This document shows positions 3,309 to 59,155 of a DNA stretch of 64,000 nucleotides, in pieces. The DNA lies in assembly GCA_963971285.1 (NCBI GenBank), contig OZ020244.1, positions 3,906,001 through 3,970,000 on the forward strand, read 5' to 3'. Numbering within the stretch: the stretch's first letter is position 1; every line of letters begins with the position of its first letter. This DNA comes from Astropecten irregularis (lineage: Eukaryota > Echinodermata > Asteroidea > Paxillosida > Astropectinidae). The notes under the pieces are model-generated. The model was given only the letters and a program-made list of their open reading frames with translations, made no database searches and was not told where the DNA came from. Both the position numbers and the translations under genes were made by a program.

Positions 3309-3546
3309 GGGGCCTATTTCACAACCCTGCTTAGCATAAAAAAATCGGCTAACCATGAAATCTCTGTCAAAAAACAGGATTAACAATTAAATGTTGTGTT
3401 GGGTATGAGTTGTAATTGTTTTTTTGGCTGTTGTTCGCTGACCACGAACATCAGATGGAATTTGTAAGGGTGGTTTGTTTTATTGGGCAAGACGGTTTTG
3501 TGCTAAGCAATTATTTTGTGCTAAGCAGCTCCATGAAATTTACCCC
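3309..3546 (+). mobile_element. MITE family G
   Basis: Ends GGGGCCTATTTCACAACCCT and CATGAAATTTACCCC, subterminal TGCTTAGCA repeats, and a core with TTTGGCTGTTGTTCGCTGAC and GGTTTGTTTTATTGGGC. No coding capacity. Confidence 0.8.
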
Positions 3547-3985: not shown

Positions 3986-4237
3986 AGGCATATTTCACGG
4001 TCCTGCTTAGCACAAAAATCTGCTAACCATGAAATACCTGTCTGGTATTTAAAACAGGATTAACAACCTAAGCAATTATTTTGTGAAAGATTTGAGGCTT
4101 GGTCTCCTGATGATGACTAGCCAGGCTAGTAGAAACGTTTACGAGAAGTGCGAACGATTCTTACATGGCGTTTAGCTGCAAACCGATCCACATACCAATT
4201 ATTTTGTGCTTAGCAGCTCAATGAAATCAATGACGCC
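3986..4237 (+). mobile_element. MITE family G interrupted by the 111-bp repeat K
   Basis: GGCATATTTCACGGTCCTGC to GCTCAATGAAATCAATG. The core is replaced by the 4086-4196 insertion with its 12-bp duplication. Confidence 0.7.
4086..4196 (+). mobile_element. 111-bp insertion with degenerate hammerhead-like motif and 12-bp target duplication
   Basis: This 111-bp block interrupts a G-family MITE and is flanked by identical 12-base copies of AATTATTTTGTG (4074-4085 and 4197-4208). It matches the reverse complement of the 48 kb repeat from GTCTCCTGATGATGACTAG to the end CAAACCGATCC. At 4102-4139 it holds GTCTC, CTGATGA, T, GACTAG, a 5-base loop, CTAGT, A, GAAAC, GTT. The 3' strand of stem I is lost, so it is probably dead. 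A 12-bp duplication fits insertion by reverse transcription better than a cut-and-paste MITE. Confidence 0.6.
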
Positions 4238-6246: not shown

Positions 6247-6860
6247 AAGGGCCTTTCTCAAACCTCGGCTCTGGCTCAGGCTTCGTCTCTGCCATCCATA
6301 TGCTGAAAATAAAGGTTGTGGTTTTTCATTGAAGCTGAAGCTCTGTTTTCCTATTCAAACCAGAGAATCTACATCTGAACTGCAGCCAAAAGCCTCTGTT
6401 TTGATACCCGTTATTTTAGAATGGATTCACGAAATGGTATATGAGCCTGAACACATGAGCCTGAGCAGTGAGCCTGAGCAGTGAGCCTGAGCATATGAGC
6501 CTGAGCAGTGAGCCTGAGCATATGAGCCTGAGCATATGAGCCTGAGCAGTGAGCCTGAGCAGTGAGCCTGAGCATATGAGCCTGAGCATATGAGCCTGAG
6601 CAGTGAGCCTGAGCAGTGAGCCTGAGCATATGAGCCTGAGCATATGAGCCTGAGCATTGGCCTGAGCATATGAGCCTAAACCTAAGCATGAGCCTGAGCC
6701 TGAACCTGAGCCTGAGCCTGAGCCTAACCCTGAGCCTTAGCCTGAGTATATGAGCCTGAGCCTGAGCATATGAGCCTGAGCATATGAGCCTGGGCCTGAG
6801 TCTGAGCTTGAGCCTGAGCCTGAGCCTGAGCCTGAACCTGAACCTGATCCTGAGCCTGAA

Positions 6861-6899
<39 letters not shown>

Positions 6900-7010
6900 A
6901 AGCCTAAGCCTGAGTATATGAGCCTAACATATGAGCATGAGCCTGAGCATATGAGCCTGAGCCTAAGCCTGAGCACATTTGCCTGAGCCTGAGCCCGAGC
7001 CTGAGTCTGG
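6247..7010. mobile_element. Element H with expanded GAGCCT hexamer array
   Basis: Left end AAGGGCCTTTCTCAAACCTC plus two or three hexamers, core from CCATCCATATGCTGAAAATA to GAATGGATTCACGAAATGG, then ~580 bases of GAGCCT variants, some with GAGCATATGAGCCTGAGC insert units (6430-6800). The usual right end (TTTGAAAAAGGGCC) is not visible. Open frames of Gly-Ser or Pro-Glu type here are repeat artefacts. Confidence 0.7.
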
Positions 7011-9448: not shown

Positions 9449-10143
9449 AAGGTAGTATCACACTTTGGTGTTTGCCAAAGAAATGCAGATTCGTGGGCAA
9501 AAATATCAATAAAGATACAGTAACAGTCATCTGTGAAATTTTCAGTCCCATACGGTGCCGACTTTTTGAGAAAACATTGAAAAACGGCCACGGTATTTCT
9601 TAAAGGTAGTATCATACTTTGCTTTTAATCAAATGAATACAGATTTATGGGCAAAAATATCAAGACAGATACAGTAACAGTCAGTCATCTGTGAAAATTT
9701 CAGTCCCATACGGTGCCACAGTATTTCTTAAGTCTTTTTTCTTTTATTGTTGATCTTTTAAAAGATCAAACAGATTTTCGGTCGTTGTTTCTGGATAATT
9801 TCTGGATAAATACACCATTTCAGGCAGAAACATTTTAACGGTATGTTTCTACCACCACCATCTTCATACCCTGTAAGTTATACGCAAATCTGTGAACATG
9901 TCTGTTTTGGTTTCTTACCAAAGTATGATACTACCTACCTACTAGTCTTTTCACCTATATTTTTAAAAGATCAAAATTGTTTTTGGTCATTGGTTTTACT
10001 CTTTACTAGATAAATACAGCATTTCAGGCGGAAACATTTTAACGGTATGTTTCTACCATCACCATCTTCATAACCTGTAAGTTATAGGTAAATCTGTGAA
10101 GATTTCTATTTCGGTATGCTACCAAAGTAAGATACGACATTTA
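9449..10143. mobile_element. Cluster of three A-family MITEs
   Basis: 9449-9603 is the A-specific half only (TTAAAGGTAGTATCACACTT to CACGGTATTTC). 9604-9937 is a nearly complete A element in reverse, ending AAGTATGATACTACC. 9945-10143 is the shared half of a third copy, ending AAAGTAAGATACGAC. The copies follow each other with almost no spacer. Confidence 0.75.
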
Positions 10144-10488
10144 ACCTGAAATGCATACTGATATCTTGGGGTTCTATTGTAAACAATGGTAGAATACATC
10201 TTGGCACAGGGTTATCTTGATACTACACTACCAGGTATTTATTTTCTTATATCTGTATGGAATGTGTGTACTATTCTTGGCAATTTAAATGATTAATCAA
10301 ACAAGACGGAATGCGGCTTAGAAATAAGACTATTATTTCTAGCTTTTTATTATGCGCAAGTAATAATCTGCTGCAAACTGCTCATCAGCCAAAATGATGA
10401 CCTGAAATTGATAATCCCCCTTATCCTGATCCTCTCATCCATTTATTTGTACCTTCACTTGCATGTTCTTGTCCTCTTGTCATTTATC

Positions 10489-10781
10489 CTTTGAGAAAGA
10501 TCCTGCTAGGATCGAAACGTCAGGCCCTCCTAACTCTGACCATTTAGCCTTTGAGACAGATCCTGCTAGGATCGAAACATTAGGCCCTCCTAACTCTGAC
10601 CATTTAGCCTTTGAGAAAGATCCTGCAAGGATCGAAACGTCAGGCCCTCCCAACTCTGACCATCTAACCTTTGAGAAAGATCCTGCTAGGATTGAAACAT
10701 CAGGCCCTCCTAACTCTGGCCAGCCTTTGAGAAAGATCCTGCTAGGATCGAAACGCGTCAGGCCCTCATAACTGCAAGCAT
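10489..10781 (+). repeat. 60-bp minisatellite array, ~5 units, + orientation
   Basis: The exact 60-base period has a unit reading GCCTTTGAGAAAGATCCTGC, then TAGGATCGAAACGTCAGG, then CCCTCCTAACTCTGACCATT. The period is a multiple of three, so it leaves an open frame (KDPARIETSGPPNSDHLAFE) that should not be taken as a gene. Each unit holds the inverted repeat GATCCT/AGGATC and a weaker GTCAG/CTGAC pair. The leader at 10425-10488 recurs before the 24 kb array (24312-24371). The array ends in a unit with CTGCAAGC instead of CTCTGACC. Confidence 0.9.
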
Positions 10782-11069
10782 TATTATGGGACTAGTTTCT
10801 ATCATTCGAATATCTTCTTTATGTACCTTTCGTGTACATAGTCATTAATAATATCAAAAATTGATAAGGAAATTTGACATAAATCTCGTGGCAATGATGC
10901 CTATCATTTTAAGGTCTGCAAGATTCCGTGACATGGTTAGGAATAAATATTCAAAGATTATATTCTTGAACAATCTTGGAATTTGTGGTATGTGACATTT
11001 AACCCACTCCTTTTATCAGTCCGCTGTTACCGAGAACTTCACTGCGATACCATAACATTTTTTTGAAAA

Positions 11070-11897
11070 ACAACTGTTTAAAGGAACTAGGCTCTTATCT
11101 GTCTAAAAGGCTAAATGGACAGAGTTAGGAGGGCCTGGCGTTTCGATCCTAGCAGGATGCTCAAAGGCTAAATGGTCAGAGCTATGGGTGGATGACGTTT
11201 GAATCCTAGCAAGATCTTTCTTAAAGGCTATATGGTCAGAGTTAGGAGGGCCTGACGTTTCGATCCTAGCAGGATATTTCTCAAAGGATACATGGATAGA
11301 GTTAGGAGGGCCTGACGTTTTGATCTTAGCAGAATCTTTCTCAAAGGCTAAATGGTCAGAGTTAAGAGGGCCTGACGTTTTGATCCTATAGCAAGGATTT
11401 TTCTCACAGGATAGTGGTCAGAGTTAGGAGGGCCTAATGTTTCGAACCTAGCAGGATCTTTCTCAAAGGCTAAACGGTCAGAGTTAGGAGGGCCTGTTAT
11501 TTGGATCCTAGCAGGATCTTTCTCAAAGACTTAATGGTCAGAGATATCGGGGCCTGATGTTTCCATCCTAGCAGGATCTTTCTCAAAGCCTTTGAGAAAG
11601 ATCCTCTTAACTCTGACCATTTAGGTCAGAGTTAAGAGGGCCTGACGTTTGGATCTGAGCAGGATCTTTCTCAAAGGCTAAATGGTCAGAGCTAGGAGGG
11701 CCTGACGTTTCGATCCTAGCAGGATATTTCTCAAAGGCTAGTGGTCAGAGTTAGGAGGTTCTGGCGTTTTGATCCTAGCAAGATCTTTCTCAAAAATGCT
11801 CATAGTTAAAAGGGCCTGACGTTTCAGGACATTGAAGGAAATAGCCTCTGAGAAAGATGCTGCTAGGATCGAAACGTCAGGCCCTCCTAACTCCAAC
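11070..11897 (-). repeat. 60-bp minisatellite array, ~13 units, mostly - orientation with inversions
   Basis: The units are the reverse complement of the 10.5 kb array until ~11588. Then a truncated + unit meets a - unit head to head at 11588-11640, forming a perfect hairpin. Then - units continue to ~11825, and one + unit at ~11850-11896 ends CTCCAACC. Unit sequences vary by 5-15%. Confidence 0.9.
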
Positions 11898-11929
11898 CTA
11901 TTGCTGTTTGCAGCAGTCTATTACTTGTA

Positions 11930-12600
11930 TAATTAATACTAAACGCTGGACCATCATATTTTTGTCAGACTCGTGTACTAAGCTAATAAAACTCCTATCT
12001 TCTCTTGAAAGTATACTCGCGAATACCACGCATTGAATGCAACATCATATTGTTTGACTGCGTCAGCGTGTGACGTGATTCAGCGCGCTCGCCAGGAAAT
12101 ATTCGGCGGTGTTGACGGAACGGCCGTCCGTCAAAACTAAGGAACGCGACTCCGGTACCATCCAAGACATTCACCGCATTGATCCCTTAGTCTGTCCTCG
12201 GTCCATCACTCTGTAGCCAAGTCGAGTGTCTAACCTATACGGTGACCGGGACCCTTGTCTCTCACCGCGCCCAGCATATCATCTGGCATGACCTTGCTAA
12301 GAATTCAAGGGAGCTCCTTGTCAAGGAGATGCCTCAACTTTGACAGAGGAGGGCTGTGATGATGTCTGGCAGAGCCTGGGCCGTGGCTTCCTTCCAATGC
12401 TTTGAATATTTTTTCAAATTCAAATTTTTCTCATTGGGCAAGTTTTTTCATGTTGTCTGCGATGACCAGCCCGTTCTGATTCTATCCGCGCTTTTGTAAT
12501 TGTACAAGGGTAAAATAATTAGCAATGCCAGCCCAATCTCACGTAAAGGTACTGTCATGTTCTGAAAGCATAGCCGTACCATCTTGGCAACAGTTTACAT
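11930..12600. other. No gene seen; CpG-containing low-copy DNA
   Basis: 12058-12310 is CpG-richer than its surroundings and holds TGACGTGA at 12070. Could be a distal regulatory element; nothing decisive. Confidence 0.35.
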
Positions 12601-12603
12601 TAA

Positions 12604-12907
12604 AGGTAGTATCATACTTTGGTAGCATACCGAAACAGAAATCTTCACAGATTCACCTGTAACTTACAGGGTATAAAGAAGGTGATGGTAGAAACATACC
12701 GTTAACATTTCTCTGCCCTAAAATGCTGTATTTATCCAGAAAAGAGCGTAAAAAATACCGTGGGCGTTTTTCATTGTTTTCTTAAAAAGAGGGCACTGCA
12801 TGGGACTGGGAATTTGACAGATGACTGTTACTGTATCTTTCTTGATATATTTGCCAATTGCCCATGAATCTGCATTTCTTTGACAAAAACCAAAGTATGA
12901 TATTTCC
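12604..12907 (+). mobile_element. MITE family A with TTAA duplication
   Basis: TTAA at 12600-12603 and 12908-12911. The central hairpin region is deleted (CCAGAAAAGAGCGTAAAAAA joins directly to the A-specific half). The ~50 bases before it also precede the A copy at 30696. Confidence 0.85.
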
Positions 12908-13654
12908 TTAAATGCCCCATGTACTGAATACTGCATATCTGTATAATACACAGGTATTAATATAACCTTGGATGGGACCTTAGGGAGACTTTCCCATAGG
13001 GTCGTGCACAAACTTTACTTACCTATTTCTAAACATCCCCCAACCCAATGAACTTGAAATTGACATATGTTCATATTGAGAGCATTCTCTGTCTTCTATT
13101 AAAATATGGACAGCAAAATACGTCTTTAACAGGTAGCTGGTACCTTAATAGGGAGACATTGAAATGTCTCCCTAAGTCCCGATGTCTCCCTAATGTACAC
13201 TTTTAGATGCTTACGTGTCTCACTTATACCTCATTTGTAATTATTGATGCACTGTTACTATACAAAATGAGCACGAAGCGGCTATGATGATCCATTTATC
13301 ATGTACACTTATATCAAGCGAACTATATCTCAGGTTCTCAACAGACATTAAGCTATAGCCTTCCATGTCTTCACAATTGGAAACCACCCTTTCCAATCCA
13401 TTTAATAATTAGTAGTAATGTATTAATTTTGGATTTGTGTAACCAGACTTTCACCTCGGCTCACGGCGCCTGTGTACCGACGCAGTTCGCAATCAGTGTG
13501 GAAGAAAATGACCTGACTTGCCAGACAAAATAGGCAAAAAGAAAATCCGCACAAATGTAATATTTACCACTTGGACCAAGCGGTTAAGAGCTTTCAAATG
13601 GCGAATAACTCTAAGTGTCTTGTCATCCTCTGCCTGTATATAGAATAAACCTGA

Positions 13655-14348
13655 CATATTTTGGAGATGCTTGGAGTTAGGAGGGCCTGACGTTTCGATC
13701 CGAGCAGGATCTTTCGTAAATGCTTTTAGAAAGTTTCTGCTAGGATCGAAACGTCAGCATTTAGTCTTTGAGAAAGATCATGGAAGGATCGAAACCTCCG
13801 GCCCTCTGACCATTAGGTCTTTGAGAGAGATCCTGCTATAGGATCGAAACATCAGGCCCTTCTTACTCTGACCATTAAGTCTTTATGAAAAATCCTGCTA
13901 GGATTGAAACATCAGGCCCTCCTTTTTACTCTGACATTTAGCCTTTGAGAAAGATCCTGCTAGGATCGAAACATCAGGCCCTCCTTACTCTGACCATTTA
14001 CTTTAAGAAAGATCCTGCTAGGATTGAAACGTCAGCCCCTCCTAACTCTGACCATAGCCTTTGAGAAAGATCCTGCTAGGGTTGAAACGTCAGACCCTCC
14101 TAATTCTCTGACCATTTAGCCTTTGAGAAATATCCTGCTATTATCGAAACGTCAGGCCTCCTTACTCTGACCAGCTTTTGAGAAAGATCCTGCTAGGTTC
14201 GAAACGTCAGGCCCTCCTAAGTCTGACAATTTCCTTTGAGAAAGATCCTGCTAGGATTGAAACATCAGGCACTCCTAACTCTGACCATGTAGCCTTTGAG
14301 AAAGATCCTGCTAGGATCGAAACGTCAGGCCCTCCTAACTCCAAGCAT
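13655..14348 (+). repeat. 60-bp minisatellite array, ~12 units
   Basis: It opens with one - unit whose first bases are GCTTGGAGTTAGGAGGGCC (the inverted form of the usual array end) and continues with + units to CTCCTAACTCCAAGC. Both array edges are thus the CTCCAAGC-type end, facing outward. The sequence after it resembles the inverted end described for 10357-11928. Confidence 0.9.
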
Positions 14349-14749
14349 CCAGGTCAATATTTTGGTTGATGAGCAGTTTGCAATATTAAATATCGCGACC
14401 AGGTTAGTGACACCTGGCAATTCCTTCCACGAATCTTACGTTGTCGGGTCACCATGTTGCGCTAAGACGTGTAATCCCGTGGACTTAGCGTCAGTGTGCG
14501 CGGACATCCAGACTCAGGAATGAAGTGACTTGGCGATGGATGTCCCAAACGCGAGGAATCCCCGGCCTGAAAACCGGCTCTCATCACTCACAGTCCTGAC
14601 CGCGGCAATTTCTGGACCAAGCGAGTCTTGGCATATGAGAGCGCAGGCGTCGTGGCATTGACGTGCATTCCATGATTATAGTTCCCTCATACCTTGCTTC
14701 CCGCTTCCTCCATTGTCTATTTGTATGTTTATGTTTATACTGAATAGAA

Positions 14750-23924: not shown

Positions 23925-24195
23925 ATTGCCGTTCCCAGGTTGCAGCATTGTTGCGTGTATCATTGAAACGATCCCTGGGGTGTGGCGGTGTGTGCGTGGT
24001 TTCATGGCTTCTGACTGCCAAACGAACAAGGATAGTTGACTATTGGGGTCACCACCAACGTAGGGCTGGATGGCTCAGTTGGTAGAGCGCCTGTACGGTA
24101 TTCAGGAGGTCGCCGGTTCGAATCCCGCTCCAGTCAATTTTTCTTTTTTCACTTGACTTAAAAATACTCAGTCAGTTTTTCCTTGTGGTTATTTC
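23925..24195 (+). mobile_element. tRNA-like SINE copy (GGCTGGATGGCTCAG head)
   Basis: The tRNA-like part 24064-24136 has a D-arm (GGCTCAGTTGGTAGAGC), CCTG/CAGG anticodon stem and B box (GGTTCGAATCCCGC). Loop ACGGTAT would put GGT (Thr) as anticodon, but position 33 is C not T and the acceptor stem is poor, so this is a SINE head rather than a tRNA gene. The 5' extension and tail recur at 49.5-49.9 kb. Confidence 0.65.
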
Positions 24196-24311: not shown

Positions 24312-25088
24312 CCCGATGATCCTCTCATCCATTTATGTGCATCTTTACTTGCATGTTATGGTCCTCTTGTCATTTAACCTTTGAGAAAGATCCTGCTAGG
24401 ATCGACACGTGCCAGGGCCTTTTAACTCTGACCATTTAGACTTGAGAAAGATCCTGCTAGGATCAAAACATCAGGCCCTCCTAACTCTGACCAGGCTTGA
24501 GAAAGATCCTGCTAGGATTGAAACATCAGGCCCTCCTAACTCTGACCATTTAGCCTTTGAGAAAAATCATGTTAGGGTCGAAACATCAGGCCCTTCTAAC
24601 TCTGACCATCTAGCCCTTTAGAAAGATCCTGCTAGGATCAAAACATCAGGCCCTCCTAACTCTGACCATTTAGCCTTTGAGAAAAATCCTGCTAGGATCA
24701 AAACATCAGGCCCTCCTTACTCTGACCATTTAGCCTTTGAGAAAAATCATGTTAGGGTCGAAACATCAGACCCTCCTAACTCTGACAATTTAGCCTTTGA
24801 GAAATATCCTGCTAGGATCGAAACGTCATGCCCTTCTAACTCTGACCATCTAGCCCTTGAGAAAGATCCTGCTAGGATAAAAACATCAGACCTTCCTAAC
24901 TCTGACCATTTAGCCTTTGAGAAAGAACCTGCTAGGATCGAAACGTCAGGCCCTCCTAACTCTGATCATCTAGCCTTTGAGAAAGATCCTGCTAGGATCC
25001 AAACATCTGACCCTCCTACCTTTGACCATTTAGACTTCGATAAAGATCCTGCTCGGACCGGAACGCGTCAGGCCCTCCTAACTCCAAC
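24312..25088 (+). repeat. 60-bp minisatellite array, ~12 units, with leader
   Basis: Leader 24312-24371 (CTCTCATCCATTTATGTGC...) matches 10425-10488. Units follow at strict 60-base spacing to ~25088, ending CTCCAACC. Many units have GAAACATC in place of GAAACGTC, consistent with CpG decay. Confidence 0.9.
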
Positions 25089-25337
25089 CATATACTCAAT
25101 TAGAATCTCTTTTATTATCATCAAATAATTTATACAGTGAGAGTTGGCCAAACATTTCCTCCCTACCTTTGTATACGTCCAATATATCACTCTTTCAATA
25201 TTGACAGAATGGCCAAATTTAAGAGGATCTATTCCCAATGGTGCAATTAGCTTTTAGACTGTGATATCTCTCATCTGAGTGATCTCAGATAGCGCTATCT
25301 GCATGCATATATACATCAACATGTCCATCCTTCTTAA

Positions 25338-27298: not shown

Positions 27299-27422
27299 TT
27301 GGCCTTTCTCAAAACTTGGTTCAGGCTTAATCTCAGGCTCAGGCTCAGGCTCGGGCTCAGGCTCGGGCTCAGGCTCAGGCTCAGGTTCAGGTTCAGGCTC
27401 AGGCTCAGGCTCAGGCTCAGGT

Positions 27423-27500
<78 letters not shown>

Positions 27501-27643
27501 CCAGGGTCAGACACAGGCACAGGCTGCTCTGGCTCAGGCTCAGACTCAGCCTCGGGCTTAGGTTCAGGCTCAGGCTCAGGCTTGGGCTCGATGACAGAAA
27601 CGAAGCCGTAGCCTGAGCCGTAGCCGAGCTTTGAGAAAGGCCT
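27299..27643. mobile_element. Element H, core replaced by CAGGCT hexamers
   Basis: Left TTGGCCTTTCTCAAAACTTG and right GCTTTGAGAAAGGCCT are the H ends, but everything between is ~280 bases of CAGGCT variants. Frames encode poly-(Gly-Ser), poly-(Pro-Glu) or Leu-Ser, all artefacts. Confidence 0.75.
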
Positions 27644-29351: not shown

Positions 29352-29695
29352 AGGTAATATCATACTTTGGTTTTTGTCAAAGAAATGCAGATTCATGGGC
29401 AAAAATATCAAGACAGATACAGCAACAGTCATCTGTGAAAATTTCAGTCCCATACAGTGCCCACTTTATGAGAAAACAGTGAAAAACGGCCACAGTATTT
29501 CTTAAATTTTTGATCTTTTATTTTTGATCTTTTATTAAAAGATCAAGATTTTACTAATTTCTGGATAAATACACCATTTCAGGCAGAAAAATGTTAACGG
29601 CATGTTTCTACCACCACCATCTTCATACCCTGTAAGTTATAGGTAAATCTGTGAACATTTCTGTTTTGGTTTCTTACCAAAGTATGATACTACCT
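29352..29695 (-). mobile_element. MITE family A with TTAA duplication
   Basis: TTAA at 29348-29351 and 29696-29699. AGGTAATATCATACTTTGGT to AAAGTATGATACTACCT, both halves present. Confidence 0.85.
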
Positions 29696-30036
29696 TTAAG
29701 TCCAGTCACCTCTCAGATGTAGGGTATAGTCTTCATGCATTAGAAATGAAAGGGCGATTACAACAAGCCTATTGAGGACCAGCACTTTTGATTTTTTGCG
29801 TGGGAGAGCGCGTCACTAATGAAGCATGGGAACAATGATAAGTCATTCTTTCGCCATCTCAAGAATGTTATTTAAACAAGACAGAGAATAGGCCTAGCTG
29901 AAAGGTCGTAGAGATTATATTCATTACATCTGAGGGTATAATGTCATTGCAGACCTCCCATACACAATCATCATTACACGTAATTAAATCCATTACTCAC
30001 ATTTGAGATATCTGAAGTAGGCCCCTATAGCTTAGA

Positions 30037-30695: not shown

Positions 30696-31129
30696 AGGTA
30701 GTATCACACTTTGGTTATACCGAAACAGAAATCTTCACAGATTTACCTATAACTTACAGGGTATAAAGATGGTGATGGTAGAAACATACCGTGAAAATAT
30801 TTCTGCCTGAAATGCTGTATTTATCAGGAAAAGAGTAAAACCAATGACTGTAAATAATTTTGATCTTGAAAAGATAAAAAATAACGGTGAAAAGATTTTT
30901 TTTAATAGTACCGTGGGCGTTTTTCACTGTTATATCAAAAAGTGGGCACCGTATGGGACTGGGAATTTCACAAATGACTGTTACTGTATCTTTCTTTAGC
31001 CTCTGAGAAAGATCCTGCTAGGATCGAAAGGCGTCGGCCCTCCTAACTCCAAGCTGCATCTTCCTTGATATTTTTGCTCATGAATCTGCATTTCTTTGAC
31101 AAAAACCAAAGTACTGTATGATGTTACTT
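30696..31129 (+). mobile_element. MITE family A hosting a solo 60-bp unit
   Basis: TTAA at 30692-30695 and 31130-31133. Complete A element interrupted at 30997-31057. The flank 30640-30691 matches the flank before 12604. Confidence 0.85.
30997..31057 (+). mobile_element. Solo 60-bp unit inserted in an A-family MITE
   Basis: One complete unit (TAGCCTCTGAGAAAG ... CTCCTAACTCCAAGCTGC) interrupts the MITE at its otherwise conserved GTATCTTCCTTGATATTT stretch. ATCTTTCTT (30988-30996) before and ATCTTCCTT (31058-31066) after it look like a 9-base target duplication with one mismatch. It carries the CTCCAAGC end seen at array edges. Confidence 0.75.
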
Positions 31130-31820: not shown

Positions 31821-31966
31821 GATGTGAGCTCGTCCCCGGTGGACGCTCGAATAGCGAGAGCACCGGCGTGTAAAAAAGAATCGACATGCTAGAAACATGG
31901 CACTTGCCGTGTCTGCACTCAGCGACTTTACCTATAAATTGACAGTCATCTTGGGTGAGGATAGTC
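31821..31966 (+). promoter_or_regulatory. Probable GPCR 5' leader with possible 3' splice site and uORFs
   Basis: A pyrimidine-rich tract ending in AG at 31819-31820 (TTTTTTTATTCCCAG) looks like a 3' splice acceptor, so the coding exon may start at 31821 with an upstream non-coding exon. The leader has two upstream ATGs. One at 31886 gives an 18-codon peptide ending at 31942. One at 31897, in strong context (A at -3, G at +4), gives 29 codons ending at 31986, overlapping the first in-frame ATG and stopping 10 bases before the ATG at 31997. No clear TATA box was recognised. All of this is inference without transcripts. Confidence 0.4.
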
Positions 31967-34519
31967 ATGCCTGTTACGCGGTCTGATACATGGACTATGG
32001 CACGAGAAATCATCTTAAACAACTCAGTACCTTCGTATTTCGAGATAACGACTGGAGGAGGACTAGCTGGTATGGATAGTGAAAACCTGACTGTTGGCGT
32101 AGCGGGGATGACGCCGATGCCGTTACCTTGCAGTAATAATGGCTGGGCCAGTAACGGCATCAACGCGCTTCAAATCGACCCCGATAGGGAGGGATACACA
32201 CCGGTCGTCGTCCTGCTGTCCTTTCTGGTGGCTTTACTCGGATTCGGCACGGTGCTGACCAATGCACTGGTCATCCATGTCATACGGGCCGACCGATCCT
32301 TACACACGGTCAGTAACTGTTTCGCTATGAGCCTAGCGACGGCCGATCTCTTGGTGGGTCTGCTGGTTGTACCCTTCTACGCGCTTGATGTACATGTATC
32401 CGAGCAATGGCATGAGCACATTCCGGCTCATAGTGTATGGGTAACGCTTGACTTTTTAATGACATCGTCCAGTATACTGAACCTCGTACTCCTCAACTTA
32501 GACCGGTTCTGGTCCATCACTTCGCCCATGAAGTACATGCGGCAGCGGACTAAGCGGCGGGCTTTGATCCTCATAGCCCTCGTCTGGGGACTGTCTTTTG
32601 TCCTGACCATAGTACCTGCATCCATCTGGCCCTACGCCTTCAAAGACGTCTTCGTGCCCACGAAAACCCGTTTTGTGTGTTTCGGTTCGAGCGCGTGGCT
32701 GATGACCGCCAGCGCTATCTGCATTTACTTCATTCCGCTCACGCTACTCTGTGCAATATATTCGCGTATATTCAGGGCGATACACCGGCGACACAAGATG
32801 GACTTGGGTAGGTCCAGCATCGCCAGCAACATGTCCAACCGCTTTGGTGGATCCAAGCGCGGTAGCGACATGAACCACCAAGGATTCATCAGCGAGCAGG
32901 AGCTCCAGCGGCTGAGGAACATCTACGAGAAGGCCATCTGTCGAGAAAGAGGTGAGAGACACTTGACCGCCATGGTGCGTAAGAAGAAGGGATACAGCCC
33001 AGGCGCGCATATAAAACGCTACGAAAGCATCGACGAGGAGAAGGAAGGAGTGAACGAGTCGTGTGAGAATGATCCATTCAGTTCAGAGGCCACCGAGGAG
33101 CCGGACACATTCAGCAGTCGAGCTCACGAAAGCCAGGTAGGGGTCAACAACATTGTGAATAAGTTGCACGTCACTCGGTCCGTAGACGATATCTTTCACG
33201 GAACGATCACCAAGAACCCCGTTAACACGTTCGAGGGCCTCAGCGTGCTGCCTAAGATCAAAGTGCCGCGGATTCTGGCTGGGATGGAAGTCAGCATGGA
33301 CGTGATTCGCGAACGAGATGGGAGCTGGTGCAGCTCCAAGTCCAATAAGTCACTGGGGAGTGATGGCAAAAGGGGTGGGGACAACGTCTCATCCCACTCC
33401 CAGTCCCACTCCCAGGAGATGATCGGTCGCATCTCACCAGGAAGGAAGAACAGTTCCCCCTGCATCAGTGTCAGCGTCATGAACTCCTCCCCGAAGGAGC
33501 GCAGTCCCGCGGGATCCAGCAACCGTCTGAGTGTCGGCGGCATGCCCGAGTCCATCAACCCCAACTTCTTGCAAGTTCTTTCACCGGATGTGCCGCTGGA
33601 CTTACAGAAGAGGTGGAGCTCTCCTCCCATCTGCGTGGACGAGCCGGCATCCGAGCATGAGGACACTGACCAGACCCCGGAGGACGCCATAGCAGCAGAG
33701 GAGAACGAGGAGGTCGAAGACAACGACGACTCTGATCCAATTGCAGACATGGCCATGGCCGTCAAGCGAAAGCGAGCGGACTCCGGTGAGGGCGCCCTGG
33801 CACGCCTACGGGCCAACTCCACCGAGATGATACGTCGTGCATCTCCGCGCCTCGCACGCAAGGAGGAAGGTGATACTGAGAGCCTCCTTAACGTGGAACG
33901 GAAAGCATCCGGCGGAAGCGGGTCTTACTACCGGGAAAGCTTCCAGAGCAACCGTCTCCTGAACCAGAAGAGGCAGAACACACGAACATCTTACTCCCTG
34001 GATCTGATCACGGCACCTCGTAGCGACAGTGGCTATGCCAGTGACTGTGGCTTCCGCCGGCCCGGTAGCTTAGGCGTGTCTGCCACCAAGAAGGAACGCA
34101 GGGCGTCCCTTTCCTTCCCCATAGACAGCGCCTCCATGGGGGCACTCACGTCCCGAGTACGGACTTCCGTCAGCAACTCCTTTAGTGCAATCAGTGGACG
34201 CGGCACCAAAGCCCTATCGCTGCTGAAGAAGCAGGACAAAGCCGCTAAGCAGCTTGGCTTCATCCTAGCTTGTCTGCTAGCTTGCTGGACCCCTTACTTC
34301 CTCCAGGTCCTCATCTATGCCTTCTGCTCGGACTGCGGTGATGTCACCGCCATGACCATTGCCGTCTTTCTAGGGTACACCCATTCTCTTTGTAACCCCA
34401 TCCTGTTCACCTTGTTCAACCCCCGGTTCCAGCGGGCCTGTAAACGGACTCTCTTCCCGTGTCGTGCGCGGGAGGAGAACCACCGTGGATGCCCAGTTGT
34501 TCCACCATCCATGATATAA
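31967..34519 (+). CDS. Histamine H1-like class A amine GPCR, single exon
   Basis: Seven-TM receptor of 850 codons (from the ATG at 31967) in one uninterrupted exon. TM1 ~79-107 (N99), TM2 ~113-139 (LATADLLVG, D127), TM3 ~156-178 with the amine-anchoring Asp D162 (position 3.32) and DRF at 179-181, TM4 with W207, TM5 with P257, TM6 with CWTPYF (W774, P776), TM7 with NPILF (810-814). KAAKQLGFI just before TM6, the CSDC loop after it (C787, C790) and LGY in TM7 resemble histamine H1 receptors; muscarinic receptors are the next best fit. The third intracellular loop (~268-758) is very long, Ser-rich, with an acidic run near 572-590. Oddities: the TM3 disulfide Cys (3.25) is His155, H1 Asn5.46 is Ile253, and the DRY and NPxxY tyrosines are both Phe. 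Two N-glycosylation sequons (N18, N40) lie in the extracellular N-terminus. ATGs at 31997 (A at -3, G at +4) and 32072 are alternative starts. Ligand and G protein cannot be read from sequence. Confidence 0.9.
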   Translation: MPVTRSDTWTMAREIILNNSVPSYFEITTGGGLAGMDSENLTVGVAGMTPMPLPCSNNGWASNGINALQIDPDREGYTPVVVLLSFLVALLGFGTVLTNALVIHVIRADRSLHTVSNCFAMSLATADLLVGLLVVPFYALDVHVSEQWHEHIPAHSVWVTLDFLMTSSSILNLVLLNLDRFWSITSPMKYMRQRTKRRALILIALVWGLSFVLTIVPASIWPYAFKDVFVPTKTRFVCFGSSAWLMTASAICIYFIPLTLLCAIYSRIFRAIHRRHKMDLGRSSIASNMSNRFGGSKRGSDMNHQGFISEQELQRLRNIYEKAICRERGERHLTAMVRKKKGYSPGAHIKRYESIDEEKEGVNESCENDPFSSEATEEPDTFSSRAHESQVGVNNIVNKLHVTRSVDDIFHGTITKNPVNTFEGLSVLPKIKVPRILAGMEVSMDVIRERDGSWCSSKSNKSLGSDGKRGGDNVSSHSQSHSQEMIGRISPGRKNSSPCISVSVMNSSPKERSPAGSSNRLSVGGMPESINPNFLQVLSPDVPLDLQKRWSSPPICVDEPASEHEDTDQTPEDAIAAEENEEVEDNDDSDPIADMAMAVKRKRADSGEGALARLRANSTEMIRRASPRLARKEEGDTESLLNVERKASGGSGSYYRESFQSNRLLNQKRQNTRTSYSLDLITAPRSDSGYASDCGFRRPGSLGVSATKKERRASLSFPIDSASMGALTSRVRTSVSNSFSAISGRGTKALSLLKKQDKAAKQLGFILACLLACWTPYFLQVLIYAFCSDCGDVTAMTIAVFLGYTHSLCNPILFTLFNPRFQRACKRTLFPCRAREENHRGCPVVPPSMI

Positions 34520-34628: not shown

Positions 34629-34971
34629 AGGTAATAGCATACTTTGGTCAAAGAAACACAAATTCATGGGCAAAAATATCGGGGAAGATACAGTAACAGT
34701 TATCTGTACAATTTTCAGTCCCATACGGTGCCATCGTTTTGAGAAAACAGTGAAAAAAGGACACAGTATATCTTAAGTCTTTTCTATTTTATTTTTGATC
34801 TTTAACAGATCAAAAATAATTTTGGTCACTGGTTTTACTCTTTTCTGGATAAATACAGCATTTCAGGCAGACAAATTGTAACGGTATGTTTCTACCATTC
34901 ATACCCTGTAAGTTATAGGTAAATCTGTGAATATTTCTGTTTCGGTATGCTACCAAAGTATGATACTACCT
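34629..34971 (-). mobile_element. MITE family A just downstream of the GPCR
   Basis: TTAA at 34625-34628 and 34972-34975. It starts 109 bases past the GPCR stop, so it may lie in the 3' UTR. Confidence 0.85.
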
Positions 34972-35138
34972 TTAAATTGTTAACCTTCCCTCAAATTGTA
35001 ACGAGTGTATCCAAAATTGATGGCCATAAACCTAAGAACAACCTCATTTTTTTAAACGAGCCAGAAGGACCAAAATTGTGTTCCTACTTTTTACTACGAA
35101 AATACTTGAGAAGCTCAGAGAAATTTGACAGAAATATG

Positions 35139-37412: not shown

Positions 37413-37794
37413 CAGACTTCGTTCTCGTGTTACTGACTTGACTAAACTCACACTTCCGATTGTAGAAATCGAGCTGTGTAACAGTACACGATCTAAGATC
37501 GGAATGCCTGACTCAATGTACGGAGACATACACACTAGACAGACGGTACGACGGACGGACAGACGGGCATTGAATGACTGTTATAATAGAATGAGGATGC
37601 CTTGCATGCATTCAATTATAGGGCCAGGGTCGGCCCTGCTTTGGAATTTGAAACAACGGTACATGCCGAATCATTAACTAGATGGGGTCTCAATGTAAAA
37701 GCGTATACCAATGCGATATTGCACACTAAAAATCAACAGAATTGTGAGCAATTGCAAATATCGTCTGCTGTCAAACTAAACTTGCCTTTTAAAC

Positions 37795-38032
37795 CTTTGA
37801 GAAAGATCCTGCTAGGATCGAAACATCAGCCCCTCCTAACTCTGACCATTTAGCCTTTGAGAAAGATCCTGCTAGGATGGAAACATCAGGCCCTCCTAAC
37901 TCTGACCATTTAGCCTTTGAGAAAGATCATCCTGCTAGGATCGAAACGTCAGGCCCTCCTAATTCCAAGCATTTTGTAAATTTCAGGTCATTTTTGGGTT
38001 GATGAGAAGTTTGTAGCAGTTTATTACTTGTA
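37795..38032 (+). repeat. 60-bp minisatellite, 3 units plus element right end
   Basis: Three units (37795-37970) end CTAATTCCAAGC, followed by TTTCAGGTCATTTTTGGGTT and GCAGTTTATTACTTG, the inverted copy of the left end at 10357-10409. This small copy shows that array and end travel together. Confidence 0.85.
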
Positions 38033-38538
38033 AAAGCAAAGCTAGTTTAACTAGCCTATTGCTGTGCTGCAACCCCATCTGACAATCAATTTATTGTAAC
38101 TTTTGGAATCCAACGAAACCTATACTTTTGTTGCATTATCAAATTTGAGATAATGGCCTGAATTTGTATGAATGACTGTTCGTTGCAAAGACAAAAATGT
38201 TAGGGCAAGACGTTTAAAAACAGGGACATTTATTTTGACGGACGATTTTGTTTTGACCGACTTGTGACCCCAAAAACGGACAAATACGATTTAACCAAAC
38301 CGTTTCTATCGAGTTGTTTTTATTGTAATACCCGTTGAACATTAAGACTGCAGTAAAATAAACACTTGTGTAATTACTAGGCAGTACATAAACTACCACG
38401 TTTAAATATACATGGACCTTAAAAATATTTTAAAACCAACACGATAGTGTCGTGTGTGAAAGTAATCTGTTTGTAATTTGAAGCACATCGGACTTTGTAA
38501 TAGTGTGATATCTTGGCCATTTTGTATACAAATATTAA

Positions 38539-45347: not shown

Positions 45348-45418
45348 AAGGCCCTTTTCCAAACCTCGGTTCAGGCTCAGGCTCAGGCTCAGGCTCAGGT
45401 TCAGGCTCAGGCTCCGGT

Positions 45419-45480
<62 letters not shown>

Positions 45481-45497
45481 ATGCTCAGGCTCAGGCC

Positions 45498-45529
<32 letters not shown>

Positions 45530-45741
45530 AGCTCGGGCTCAAGCTCAAGCTCCACTTCGTGAATCCATTCTAAGATAACGGGTATCAAAATAGAGGCTTG
45601 CGGTTCGGAAGTAGATTCTCTGGTGAAAAAGAAAAGTCACAACCTATATTTTCAGCACATGGATGACAGAGCCTGAACCTGAGCCTGAGCCTGAGCCTGG
45701 GCCTGAGTCTGAGTCTGAGCTGAGGTTTGAAAAAGGGCCTT
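45348..45741. mobile_element. Element H with hexamers inside both ends
   Basis: AAGGCCCTTTTCCAAACCTC, ~190 bases of CAGGCT/CGGGCT hexamers, inverted core (GAATCCATTCTAAGATAACG ... TTTTCAGCACATGGATG), ~60 bases of GAGCCT, and right end GAGGTTTGAAAAAGGGCCTT. Ends and hexamers together form the inverted repeat. Confidence 0.8.
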
Positions 45742-47900: not shown

Positions 47901-47959
47901 TTAAAAACCCCACGGTGAAAGACGTGGCTTTAACTCCATACGTGGCAATTAATACATGC

Positions 47960-48130
47960 TCAGTTTAAGGAAGATTTGAGGCTTTGCATGGTGACAATTG
48001 GTATGGGGATCGGTTTGCGGAAAACCACGTAAGAATCGTTCGTACCGTTGCGCACTTCTATTTCATTCGCATTTCTCGTTAAGTCTCAACGTTTCGACTA
48101 GCCTACTCTAGTCATCATCAGGAGACGATT
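47960..48130 (-). repeat. Repeat K, longer copy carrying the hammerhead-like motif
   Basis: The sequence shared with 4086-4196 runs from about 48000 (GGTATGGGGATCGGTTTGCG) to 48126. An extra ~30 bases beside GAAACGTT are kept here and deleted in the 4 kb copy. GATTTGAGGCTT, next to the 4 kb copy's 5' end, also occurs here at ~47971 but on the other side of the block, so the two copies differ by a rearrangement. No protein-coding part of a retroelement is present. Confidence 0.55.
48083..48126 (-). ncRNA. Hammerhead-ribozyme-like motif with minimal helix III
   Basis: Read on the - strand: GTCTC, CTGATGA, one extra T, GACTAG, a 6-base loop, CTAGTC, GAAAC, GTT, GAGAC. GTCTC/GAGAC gives a 5-bp stem I, GACTAG/CTAGTC a 6-bp stem II, and CTGATGA plus GAAA are the exact catalytic words. 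GTT fits the NUH cleavage rule, with predicted cleavage between 48088 and 48087. Helix III would be only the two pairs possible within ACGU, as reported for Penelope-like element hammerheads. The one deviation is the extra T between A9 and stem II. It lies in a repeat shared with 4086-4196. Confidence 0.6.
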
Positions 48131-48547
48131 GAAATGAGGGATGTGAGATCCTTATAATGACATGCTCAGTTTGCAAATAAAAACCCGCCACCGAAAAAAA
48201 GGCCAGCCTGTGTAGCAATTGTTTCAATAGTTGCGTTCGTTTAGCGACCATGGGGCAATCCTGACCTGGGAATGGTCGTGTGTACTGCACAAAACAAGCG
48301 AGAGGGCGAGGGCGAGGTTGACTTGTGTCGACCCGTGTAAGCTAAACGAACGCACCTAATGTACCAGCTCATTTCAAATGTTCGCATGATACTGTACAAA
48401 TACTGCATTCAATGATCGGCCAAACTATAGCCATCCCCTATGCAGCAATCTTCAGTCAAACCGAAAACTGAATGCATACTAAAATATCAATATTTTTAGC
48501 TCGATACATATCAATATTATATGCATTATCTGGAATTGATGTTAATG

Positions 48548-56974: not shown

Positions 56975-57000
56975 CTGAAAAAGACAAGATACATACATAT

Positions 57001-57182
57001 TTAGCCTTTGAGAAAGATCCTGCAGGATCGAAACGCGTCAGGCCCCCCTAACTATAACCATTTAGCCTTTGAGAAAAATCCTGCTAGAATCGAAACGCGT
57101 CAGGCCCTCCTAACTCTCATCATCTAGCCTTTGAGAAAGATCCTGCTAGGATCCGAACGCGCCAGGCCCTCCTAACCCCAAG
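57001..57182 (+). repeat. 60-bp minisatellite, 3 units, inside a MARCH intron
   Basis: Three units with GAAACGCGTCAGG (two extra bases) end CTAACCCCAAGC. They lie in intron 56975-57715, antisense to the gene, 27 bases from the exon 56817-56974 acceptor. Confidence 0.85.
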
Positions 57183-57329
57183 CAATATACATACACCATA
57201 GAAAATCCCATTAAAAATTACAACATGTTTTTTGGCATACCGATGCTAACAATTTCAGTATGAAAGCATCGTGCTGCTGCCGCAGTAATAAATCTGCCCA
57301 TCTCACGACCCCAGGCTCTGCCTTTAAGG

Positions 57330-58024: not shown

Positions 58025-59155
58025 CAACACCAGCAATTGCCTCGCTGGTGCCCCTGGTCTTTGCCTGGGTGCCCTTGTTCATTTCCGTGGTGCCCCTGGT
58101 CATTAATTTCATTGGTATCCCTTGTCATTGCATTGAGTGCCTTTTGTCTTTGCCTGGGTGCCCTTGTTCATTTCCGTGGTGCCCCTGGTCATTAATTTCA
58201 TTGGTATCCCTTGTCATTGCATTGAGTGCCTTTTGTCTTTGCCTGGGTGCCCTTGTTCATTTCCGTGGTGCCCCTGGTCATTAATTTCATTGGTATCCCT
58301 TGTCATTGCATTGAGTGCCTTTTGTCTTTGCCTGGGTGCCCTTGTTCGTTTCCTTGGTGCCCCTGGTCATTAATTTCATTGGTGTCCCTTGTCATTGCAT
58401 TGAGTGCCTTTTGTCTTTGCCTTGGTGCCCTTGTTCATTTCCTTGGTGCCCCTGGTCATTAATTTCATTGGTATCCCTTGTCATTGCATTGAGTGCCTTT
58501 TGTCTTTGCCTGGGTGCCCTTGTTCATTTCCTTGGTGCCCCTGGTCATTAATTTCATTGGTGTCCCTTGTCATTGCATTGAGTGCCTTTTGTCTTTGCCT
58601 TGGTGCCCTTGTTCATTTCCTTGGTGCCCCTGGTCATTAATTTCATTGGTGTCCCTTGTCATTGCATTGAGTGCCTTTGGTCTTTGCCTGGGTGCCCTTG
58701 TTCATTTCCTTGGTGCCCCTGGTCATTAATTTCATTGGTGTCCCTCGTCATTGCATTTGTGTCTTAGTGGTCCTTGCCTGGGTGCCCTTGTTCATTTCCG
58801 TGGTGCCCCTGGTCATTAATTTCCGTACTGTGCCCCTTGCCATTGCCTTGGTGCCCTGGTCATTTCCTTGTGCCCTGGTCACTAGTTTCATTGGTGTCCC
58901 TTGTCATTGCATTGGTGCCTTTGGTCATTTCCTTGGTGCCCCTGGTCATTAATTTTCTCGGTGTCCCTCGTCATTGCCTAAGTGCCTTTGGTCTTTGCCT
59001 CGGTGCCCTTGTTCATTTCCTTGGTGCCCCTAGCTGATCATTAATATCCTTAGTGTCTTTTGTCTTTCCCTTGGTACCCTTGTTCATTTCCTTTGTGCCC
59101 CTGGTCATGTCCTTGGTACCCTGGTCATTTCCTTGGTGCCCCTAGTCATTGCCTT
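58025..59155 (+). repeat. 89-bp satellite array with ~22-base subunits
   Basis: Eight near-identical 89-base units (58048 to ~58760) of type GTGCCCTTGTTCATTTCC, GTGGTGCCCCTGGTCATTAA, TTTCATTGGTATCCCTTG, TCATTGCATTGAGTGCC, then degenerate units to 59155. Because 89 is not a multiple of three, each unit shifts frame and yields staggered 78-codon open frames that are not genes. It lies just upstream of the first MARCH exon found. Confidence 0.9.

Follow-up and report, generated by a model that had tools for sequence, protein, structure and literature searches.

A 64,000-nucleotide stretch of DNA from the sea star Astropecten irregularis (hereafter the window) carries 48 units of a 60-bp repeat, arranged as six array loci and one solo unit, and the layout of this repeat resembles a hammerhead ribozyme to an extent that is real and beyond chance. 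The same architecture is present in a second family of insertions in the window, termed hhB, whose core is canonical, and we infer that the array family and the hhB family share a common descent. Our preferred explanation, which we regard as probable, is that the arrays descend from Penelope-type minimal type I hammerheads and travel as a small non-autonomous retroposon. An earlier note on this DNA had read the unit as a type I hammerhead of exact order and spacing. That reading is right in kind, wrong in the word 'exact' and putative with regard to function.

Array loci and their termini

A 60-bp minisatellite had been placed at 10489..10781, and six arrays of its unit had been claimed. An array of five units is indeed present at 10482-10779, and six array loci were counted in addition to the solo unit S1. 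The components are listed below by their positions in the window.

10427..10481 (+): head of array A1, 55 bp directly 5′ of the first unit, 89% identical to 24317-24371 (blastn of unit-masked flanks)
10482..10779 (+): array A1, 5 units of ~60 bp, the last of the terminal type (helix III ACGCGT, ending in CTGCAAGC)
11117..11802 (-): inverted part of array A2, 11 units, with a left end that breaks off within a further unit
11839..11898 (+): single terminal unit of array A2, head to head with the inverted part
13669..13728 (-): inverted terminal unit, left end of array A3
13716..14346 (+): main part of array A3, 11 units, terminal unit last
24317..24371 (+): head of array A4, 55 bp (blastn of unit-masked flanks)
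24372..25089 (+): array A4, 12 units, the final one of the terminal type
30997..31054 (+): S1, a single-unit insertion that ends in CTCCAAGC and has no counterpart in the 12 extracted copies of its host repeat
37788..37970 (+): array A5, 3 units, headless, terminal unit last, no target duplication found
56998..57183 (+): array A6, 3 units, headless, terminal unit last

A distinct 3′ end of the CTCCAAGC type is carried by 8 units, one for each of the 8 outward 3′ ends, and by none of the other 40 units. The left end of A2 does not have this terminus. In A3 it occurs at both outer edges, and because the inverted terminal unit lies on the left and the main part ends with a terminal unit on the right, the 3′ termini of this array point outwards at both ends. 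The 55-bp head is common to A1 and A4, and S1, A5 and A6 are headless. The headless copies start at 30997, 37788 and 56998, all within ~4 bases of one unit position, and this clustering makes their 5′ ends look unlike the products of random truncation, although the A5 start is uncertain because no duplication is found there.

Sequences adjoining three of the array loci are similar by BLAST, with the form ..CAGGTCA..TTTTGG.TGATGAGCAGTTTGCAGCAG..TATTACTTG.. at 10331-10427 (reverse complement), 14347-14440 and 37971-38070, and a partial, weaker copy lies next to A2 at 11899-11975. This flanking sequence is a target that the element prefers, or else it belongs to the element itself.

The window holds other repeats as well. 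A dispersed repeat of a few hundred base pairs has about thirty partial copies in the 64 kb (e.g. 29358-29699, 34629-34975 and 9946-10144), and hexamer arrays of TGAGCC, TCAGGC and GAGCCT, with ~9 to 88 copies, are located at 6442-7009, 27321-27582, 45371-45552 and 45669-45724. An 89-bp tandem repeat at 58057-58823 (8.6 copies, 97% matches) is far more uniform than the 60-bp arrays. A tRNA-Thr (GGT) gene at 24064-24136 sits within the interval 23929-24140, which may be tRNA-derived mobile DNA, as suggested by an 89% copy at 49755-49550.

Layout of the unit

The consensus unit contains GCCT, TTGAGAA, A, GATCCT-GCT-AGGATC, GAA, ACGT, C and AGGC, all in the order that had been proposed. Using the hammerhead position numbers that we take to apply, stem I corresponds to unit columns 6-9 paired with 41-44, position 3 to column 10, position 8 to column 15 and A9 to column 16. 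An extra A occupies column 17, stem II is formed by columns 18-23 with 27-32, GAA fills columns 33-35, A15.1-C15.2-G16.2-U16.1 fill columns 36-39, and column 40 holds the base that precedes the cleavage site. We searched for this architecture with a relaxed descriptor that accepts C-G or U-A as the 3-8 pair and 0-1 extra base, and calls for a palindromic helix III and at least 4 bp in each of stems I and II. One example illustrates the fit.

10607..10645 (+): example unit fitting the whole relaxed descriptor, one of the 5 units that the descriptor found
10607-10610 with 10642-10645 (+): stem I of this unit, followed by the core at 10611-10617 and the extra A at 10618
10619-10624 with 10628-10633 (+): stem II of this unit, followed by GAA at 10634-10636, helix III ACGT at 10637-10640 and C17 at 10641

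The spacing departs from that of a type I hammerhead by one base, since 47 of the 48 units have an additional A next to A9 and stem II therefore does not begin directly after A9. Neither does TTGAGAA provide the canonical CUGANGA core that had been assigned to it, as evident by the fact that C3 is replaced by U and G8 by A in the consensus. C3 survives in 2/48 units and G8 in 0/48, so that no unit has both. Under the relaxed definition of the core, the 3-8 pair is Watson-Crick in 44/48 units and is U-A in each of these, given the loss of G8. Such an exchange is known in natural hammerheads, and ribozymes covarying at positions 3 and 8 are active in vitro according to passages of PMC3088659. 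By this analogy, the U3-A8 changes need not be fatal. The remaining core features are all present in the consensus and are retained to differing extents among the 48 units (GAA in 34, A15.1-U16.1 in 43 and H17 in 48).

Helix III had been described as a two-pair helix AC-GT. The ACGT palindrome is present in the consensus, but it has no loop and cannot form a hairpin, and this helix can therefore form only between two copies. A palindromic helix III of this dimer-only kind is what a Penelope-type minimal hammerhead carries, and the consensus ACGT has it. Among the 48 units, 23 have ACGT or ACGCGT and 18 have the non-palindromic ACAT. The change from ACGT to ACGCGT, a two-base insertion found in 4 units, preserves the palindrome.

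The layout had also been said to exist within each unit, which overstates its occurrence. A full relaxed core is present in 16/48 units, and core plus stems in 14/48. When the core is combined with all 4 stem I pairs, a palindromic helix III and no more than one broken pair among the 6 of stem II, 7/48 units qualify. On the best reading, many array copies have decayed.

Folding, covariation and constraint

For the consensus monomer, the minimum-energy fold is predicted to consist of exactly stem I and stem II. In the best predicted fold of the dimer (-29.6 kcal/mol, versus -20.1 kcal/mol for the double hammerhead), the stem II palindrome of one unit pairs with that of the other, and the stability of this dimer fold is ordinary (z -0.69 vs shuffled units).

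Covariation across diverged units, which had been put forward as a check of the ribozyme reading, is absent from an alignment of 32 of the 48 units, from which 14 units with indels and 2 chimaeric units were omitted. Cells were paired at 87.2% versus 87.4% in shuffles, and double-change pairs numbered 1 versus 1.5 in shuffles, leaving no sign of compensatory change in these 32 units. The hammerhead module is also no better conserved than the spacer among 35 internal units (p 0.57, or 0.19 without CpG columns). An excess was seen over all 48 units (p 0.036, or 0.0005 without CpG columns), but it was gone after 13 units were dropped (8 terminal units together with u13, u16, u18, u19, u20 and u25, with u18 in both sets), and selection on the module was rejected on this ground. 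The absence of both covariation and module constraint fits neutral decay after insertion and has little bearing on the founding sequence.

These data also bear on a possibility that we consider credible, if short of favoured, namely that the arrays have the same ancestry and are catalytically dead relics. Under this scenario, C3 and G8 were lost, and the units spread because a reverse transcriptase recognizes the hairpin and 3′ end rather than by self-cutting. It accords with the lack of any unit that keeps both C3 and G8, with the lack of over-conservation of the module in internal units and with S1, which runs uncut across the cleavage site. It also accords with the portions of PMC11167929 describing a Penelope element whose hammerhead catalytic mutants left insertion unchanged in vitro. 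However, the two core changes jointly rebuild a Watson-Crick 3-8 pair that is kept in 44/48 units, and such pairs are active by the account in PMC3088659. Likewise, the insertion that yields ACGCGT in 4 units keeps the palindrome. Loss of catalysis in this manner refines the best explanation and does not exclude it.

Rarity of the architecture and database searches

In the window, the relaxed descriptor matches 5 array units and one other place (48083-48126, minus strand). Random sequence with the dinucleotide make-up of the window gave 14 matches in 2.32 Gb on both strands, or 0.00039 per 64 kb. It had been suggested that the hammerhead reading would suffer if shuffled units scored equally well, and they do not, with 0 of 4,343,640 consensus shuffles fitting the descriptor. 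When one core mismatch is allowed, the window yields 8 matches (7 units and hhB copy 1) versus 4 in 130 random windows. The random-sequence and shuffle figures for the relaxed descriptor are somewhat generous, because the descriptor was relaxed after the units had been seen. The U3-A8 option nonetheless has an outside precedent in PMC3088659, and hhB likewise carries an extra base.

A search with Rfam models, also advised previously, returned no hammerhead at the gathering threshold in the whole window. For the arrays this silence is uninformative, because the canonical-core hhB copy 1 is missed too, up to E 10; hhB copy 2 likewise gives no Rfam hammerhead at the gathering threshold. Over 10400-14500 no hammerhead is listed up to E 10, where 25 sub-threshold matches are to other families, and a Hatchet ribozyme match at E 7.5 in that interval lies outside the arrays. 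One unit dimer gave no hammerhead up to E 10 and two CRISPR-repeat matches. Searches by exact pattern gave 0 matches in viral contigs for the array and for hhB, and 0 in prokaryotic genome contigs for the array; these collections, being viral and prokaryotic, are silent on animals.

A canonical-core family in the same window

The one descriptor match outside the arrays belongs to hhB, of which there are two copies.

47967..48159 (-): hhB copy 1, a 193-bp insertion with its hammerhead at 48083-48126 (-), flanked by duplications at 47954-47966 and 48160-48172 (13/13 match)
4086..4195 (+): hhB copy 2, a 110-bp insertion with its hammerhead at 4102-4144 and a decayed stem I, flanked by duplications at 4073-4085 and 4196-4208 (13/13 match)

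Copy 1 reads GTCTC-CTGATGA-T-GACTAG-AGTAGG-CTAGTC-GAA-ACGT-T-GAGAC. It therefore combines the textbook CTGATGA core with one extra T after A9 and a loop-free ACGT helix III, as in the architecture of the array units. An empty version of the copy 2 host site exists at 3508-3520. The 3′ ends of the two copies are ~30 nt apart (28-34, depending on the assignment of five shared bases), and at the left end of copy 2, positions 4087-4100 repeat a portion of the copy 1 3′ end (47971-47984) in inverted orientation. On the strength of this spacing and of the inverted 3′-end piece with which copy 2 opens, the hhB insertions look like products of Penelope-like retroposition.

The relation between the two families was examined by using covariance models. 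A model for which only the two hhB copies were used was run on the window without filtering. Its top foreign match (E 0.023) is an array unit, and array units account for 13 of the 30 foreign matches that it gives up to E 10; these, being copies of one repeat, are not independent. Its second foreign match is a non-unit sequence with a nearly equal score (E 0.058). In the opposite direction, hhB is absent from the 76 matches that a model from 29 units (the 32-unit set minus three more) gives up to E 10, and sequence homology between the arrays and hhB is for this reason not established. When the consensus unit is compared with hhB copy 1, both bases are changed in 8 of the 11 pairs and 0 pairs are broken, although these double changes are not independent evidence because hhB was found by requiring pairing. 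The suggestion that the arrays are ribozyme-derived is supported with regard to ancestry, as the same architecture occurs with a canonical core inside a Penelope-like insertion, but catalysis receives no support here.

We consider it unlikely that there is no ribozyme ancestry, such that the repeat is a palindromic DNA or RNA hairpin element (e.g. a protein-binding site) that spread as a mobile minisatellite and resembles a hammerhead by coincidence. An origin of this kind would agree with the two of six fixed CUGANGA positions that differ, with arrays that show no covariation and yield no Rfam hammerhead, and with the failure of the unit-built model to find hhB. However, the chance of encountering the architecture is ~4 in 10,000 per window, albeit with a descriptor relaxed after the units were seen, and a canonical-core version of it resides in the same window. 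The silence of Rfam also extends to that canonical copy.

Insertion sites of the array units

Evidence for mobility is provided by S1. Its host is a dispersed repeat, and each of the 12 copies of that repeat that were extracted is without the insertion, with 11 of the 12 aligning cleanly. Target-site duplications were identified at the two loci below.

30985..30996 and 31055-31066 (+): left (TGTATCTTTCTT) and right (TGCATCTTCCTT) target-site duplication of S1, 10/12 match
56986..56997 and 57184-57195 (+): left (AAGATACATACA) and right (AATATACATACA) target-site duplication of A6, 11/12 match

At the empty sites, the BLAST alignments overlap by 7-9 bp in most cases, and the length of the S1 insertion is accordingly given as 58-62 nt. 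A duplication of 12 bp with 2 mismatches leaves 58 nt for the insertion, and one of 8 bp leaves 62 nt.

Duplication scores were compared with a null distribution from random positions, for which the 95% point is 5 and the 99% point is 7. The scores are 10 for A6, 7 for S1, 6 for A4, 4 for A5, 3 for A1, 0 for A2 and -1 for A3, and each hhB copy scores 13. Only 2 of the 7 array loci reach the 99% point, S1 exactly so. The A4 duplication (6 bp) falls between the 95% and 99% points, and any target duplications at A1, A2, A3 and A5 are below the 95% point. The duplications at A6 are probable. A mobile tandem repeat with target duplications, as expected of a retrozyme, is therefore represented by S1 and A6, with A4 a weak case.

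Cleavage as the process that sets the insertion ends was ruled out, as evident by the fact that S1, A5 and A6 begin near columns 0-4 and end at column 60 rather than at 40/41. Because the insertion ends miss the cleavage position, the insertion template is not simply a cleaved monomer. Instead of being reverse transcribed, the units might move in the manner of a DNA transposon or a foldback element whose inverted ends are the repeats. This mode is suggested by the inverted termini at both ends of A3 and the head-to-head arrangement of A2, but is improbable given that S1, A5 and A6 have no terminal inverted repeat, starting near TTTAGCC and ending in CCAAGC.

Comparison with known systems

Minimal type I hammerheads are reportedly a feature of Penelope-like elements and Terminons, a finding said to come from Cervera and de la Pena (2014) and Lunse et al. 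(2017). According to PMC7761336, minimal type I hammerheads without the variable part of helix III number in the thousands in animal genomes, either dispersed or in tandem in Penelope elements, where their role is described as unknown. The array unit and these Penelope/Terminon hammerheads have in common the type I order, a reduced helix III, a proposed dimeric action and a tandem arrangement, again going by PMC7761336. They differ in that the known examples are C3-G8, whereas the array unit is U3-A8, measures only 60 bp and is repeated up to 12 times. A further difference is that no Penelope gene or ORF was found in the window among the 5 of 8 ORFs of at least 120 aa that were searched in Pfam. 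As to placement in the pLTR of a Penelope element, hhB has ends of Penelope-like character, and the arrays show this to a lesser degree. A long GPCR ORF at 31955-34519 is closest to sequences of Patiria miniata (90% identity), Acanthaster (88%) and Asterias (87%), in keeping with a sea-star source.

A second point of comparison is the metazoan non-LTR retrozymes, which sections of PMC7229834 portray as tandem repeats of 150-450 bp with canonical type I hammerheads. These are likewise small, non-coding, mobile tandem repeats, and their duplications, when present, exceed 4 bp. The array units, by contrast, are 60 bp, minimal and altered in the core, and with a loop II of 3 nt they do not match a 150-450-bp repeat bearing a canonical type I hammerhead with loop-loop contacts. 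The Penelope enzyme has been suggested as the mover of retrozymes, as mentioned in part of PMC7761336.

In the Penelope-type element PAc (Poseidon, Anolis), reverse transcription has two start sites separated by an optional tail of 30-40 bp, cutting and extension affect both strands of the target, and the hammerhead is protein-assisted (PMC11167929). The hhB family, with 3′ ends ~30 nt apart, an inverted 3′-end piece in copy 2 and a hammerhead upstream of the 3′ insertion end, resembles PAc. PAc differs in being a full element with an ORF and, by subtraction from values in the same source, in having start sites ~85-92 nt past the cut, versus a distance of 20 nt from the cleavage position to the end of the array family. 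Natural U3-A8 hammerheads exhibit the same covarying core change as the array units, although section 8 of PMC3088659 gives neither organism nor helix III type for its examples and does not mention an extra base after A9. The array unit is a variant of the minimal type I hammerhead, with a retrozyme-like organisation, a length of 60 bp and a U3-A8 core. No published description of such a 60-bp U3-A8 unit was found in a search of open-access papers.

Discussion

We infer Penelope-type descent, a priming mechanism and any cleavage in the account that follows. The founding unit would have run from stem I through a core of seven bases, one inserted base, stem II and GAA to an ACGT helix III without a loop, followed by C as the base at the cleavage position. 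From 1 to 12 such units would travel together as a non-autonomous retroposon with the fixed 3′ end CTCCAAGC and, in some copies, the 55-bp head. A reverse transcriptase, most likely of the Penelope type, may begin synthesis on a transcript of several units at its CTCCAAGC end and copy a single whole unit or more into a target that has been nicked, leaving duplications of ~12 bp. Priming on both target strands could give rise to head-to-head copies and to an array such as A3 with 3′ ends at both outer edges. Neighbouring units in the transcript would be able to pair crosswise via ACGT/ACGT and GCCT/AGGC to form a double hammerhead, which might cut after C17 to release 60-nt pieces.

Whether on its own or with the help of the element's protein, the consensus dimer may cleave, a prospect that we hold to be plausible yet somewhat doubtful. 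A bolder proposal, which we consider speculative and rather unlikely, is that the 58-62-nt unit is the smallest self-cleaving retroposon. Such an element, with its U3-A8 core, would cut only when neighbours are paired, would move as whole units, perhaps from 60-nt circles, and would be little more than the ribozyme itself.

Most of the mobile unit in these arrays consists of the hammerhead, the core of which is altered in a manner that preserves pairing in many copies, and a family with a canonical core is present in the same genome. A 60-bp unit would be an unusually small mobile element. With the arrays and hhB residing in one genome, a natural test is available of whether catalysis, or the fold alone, is needed for spread.
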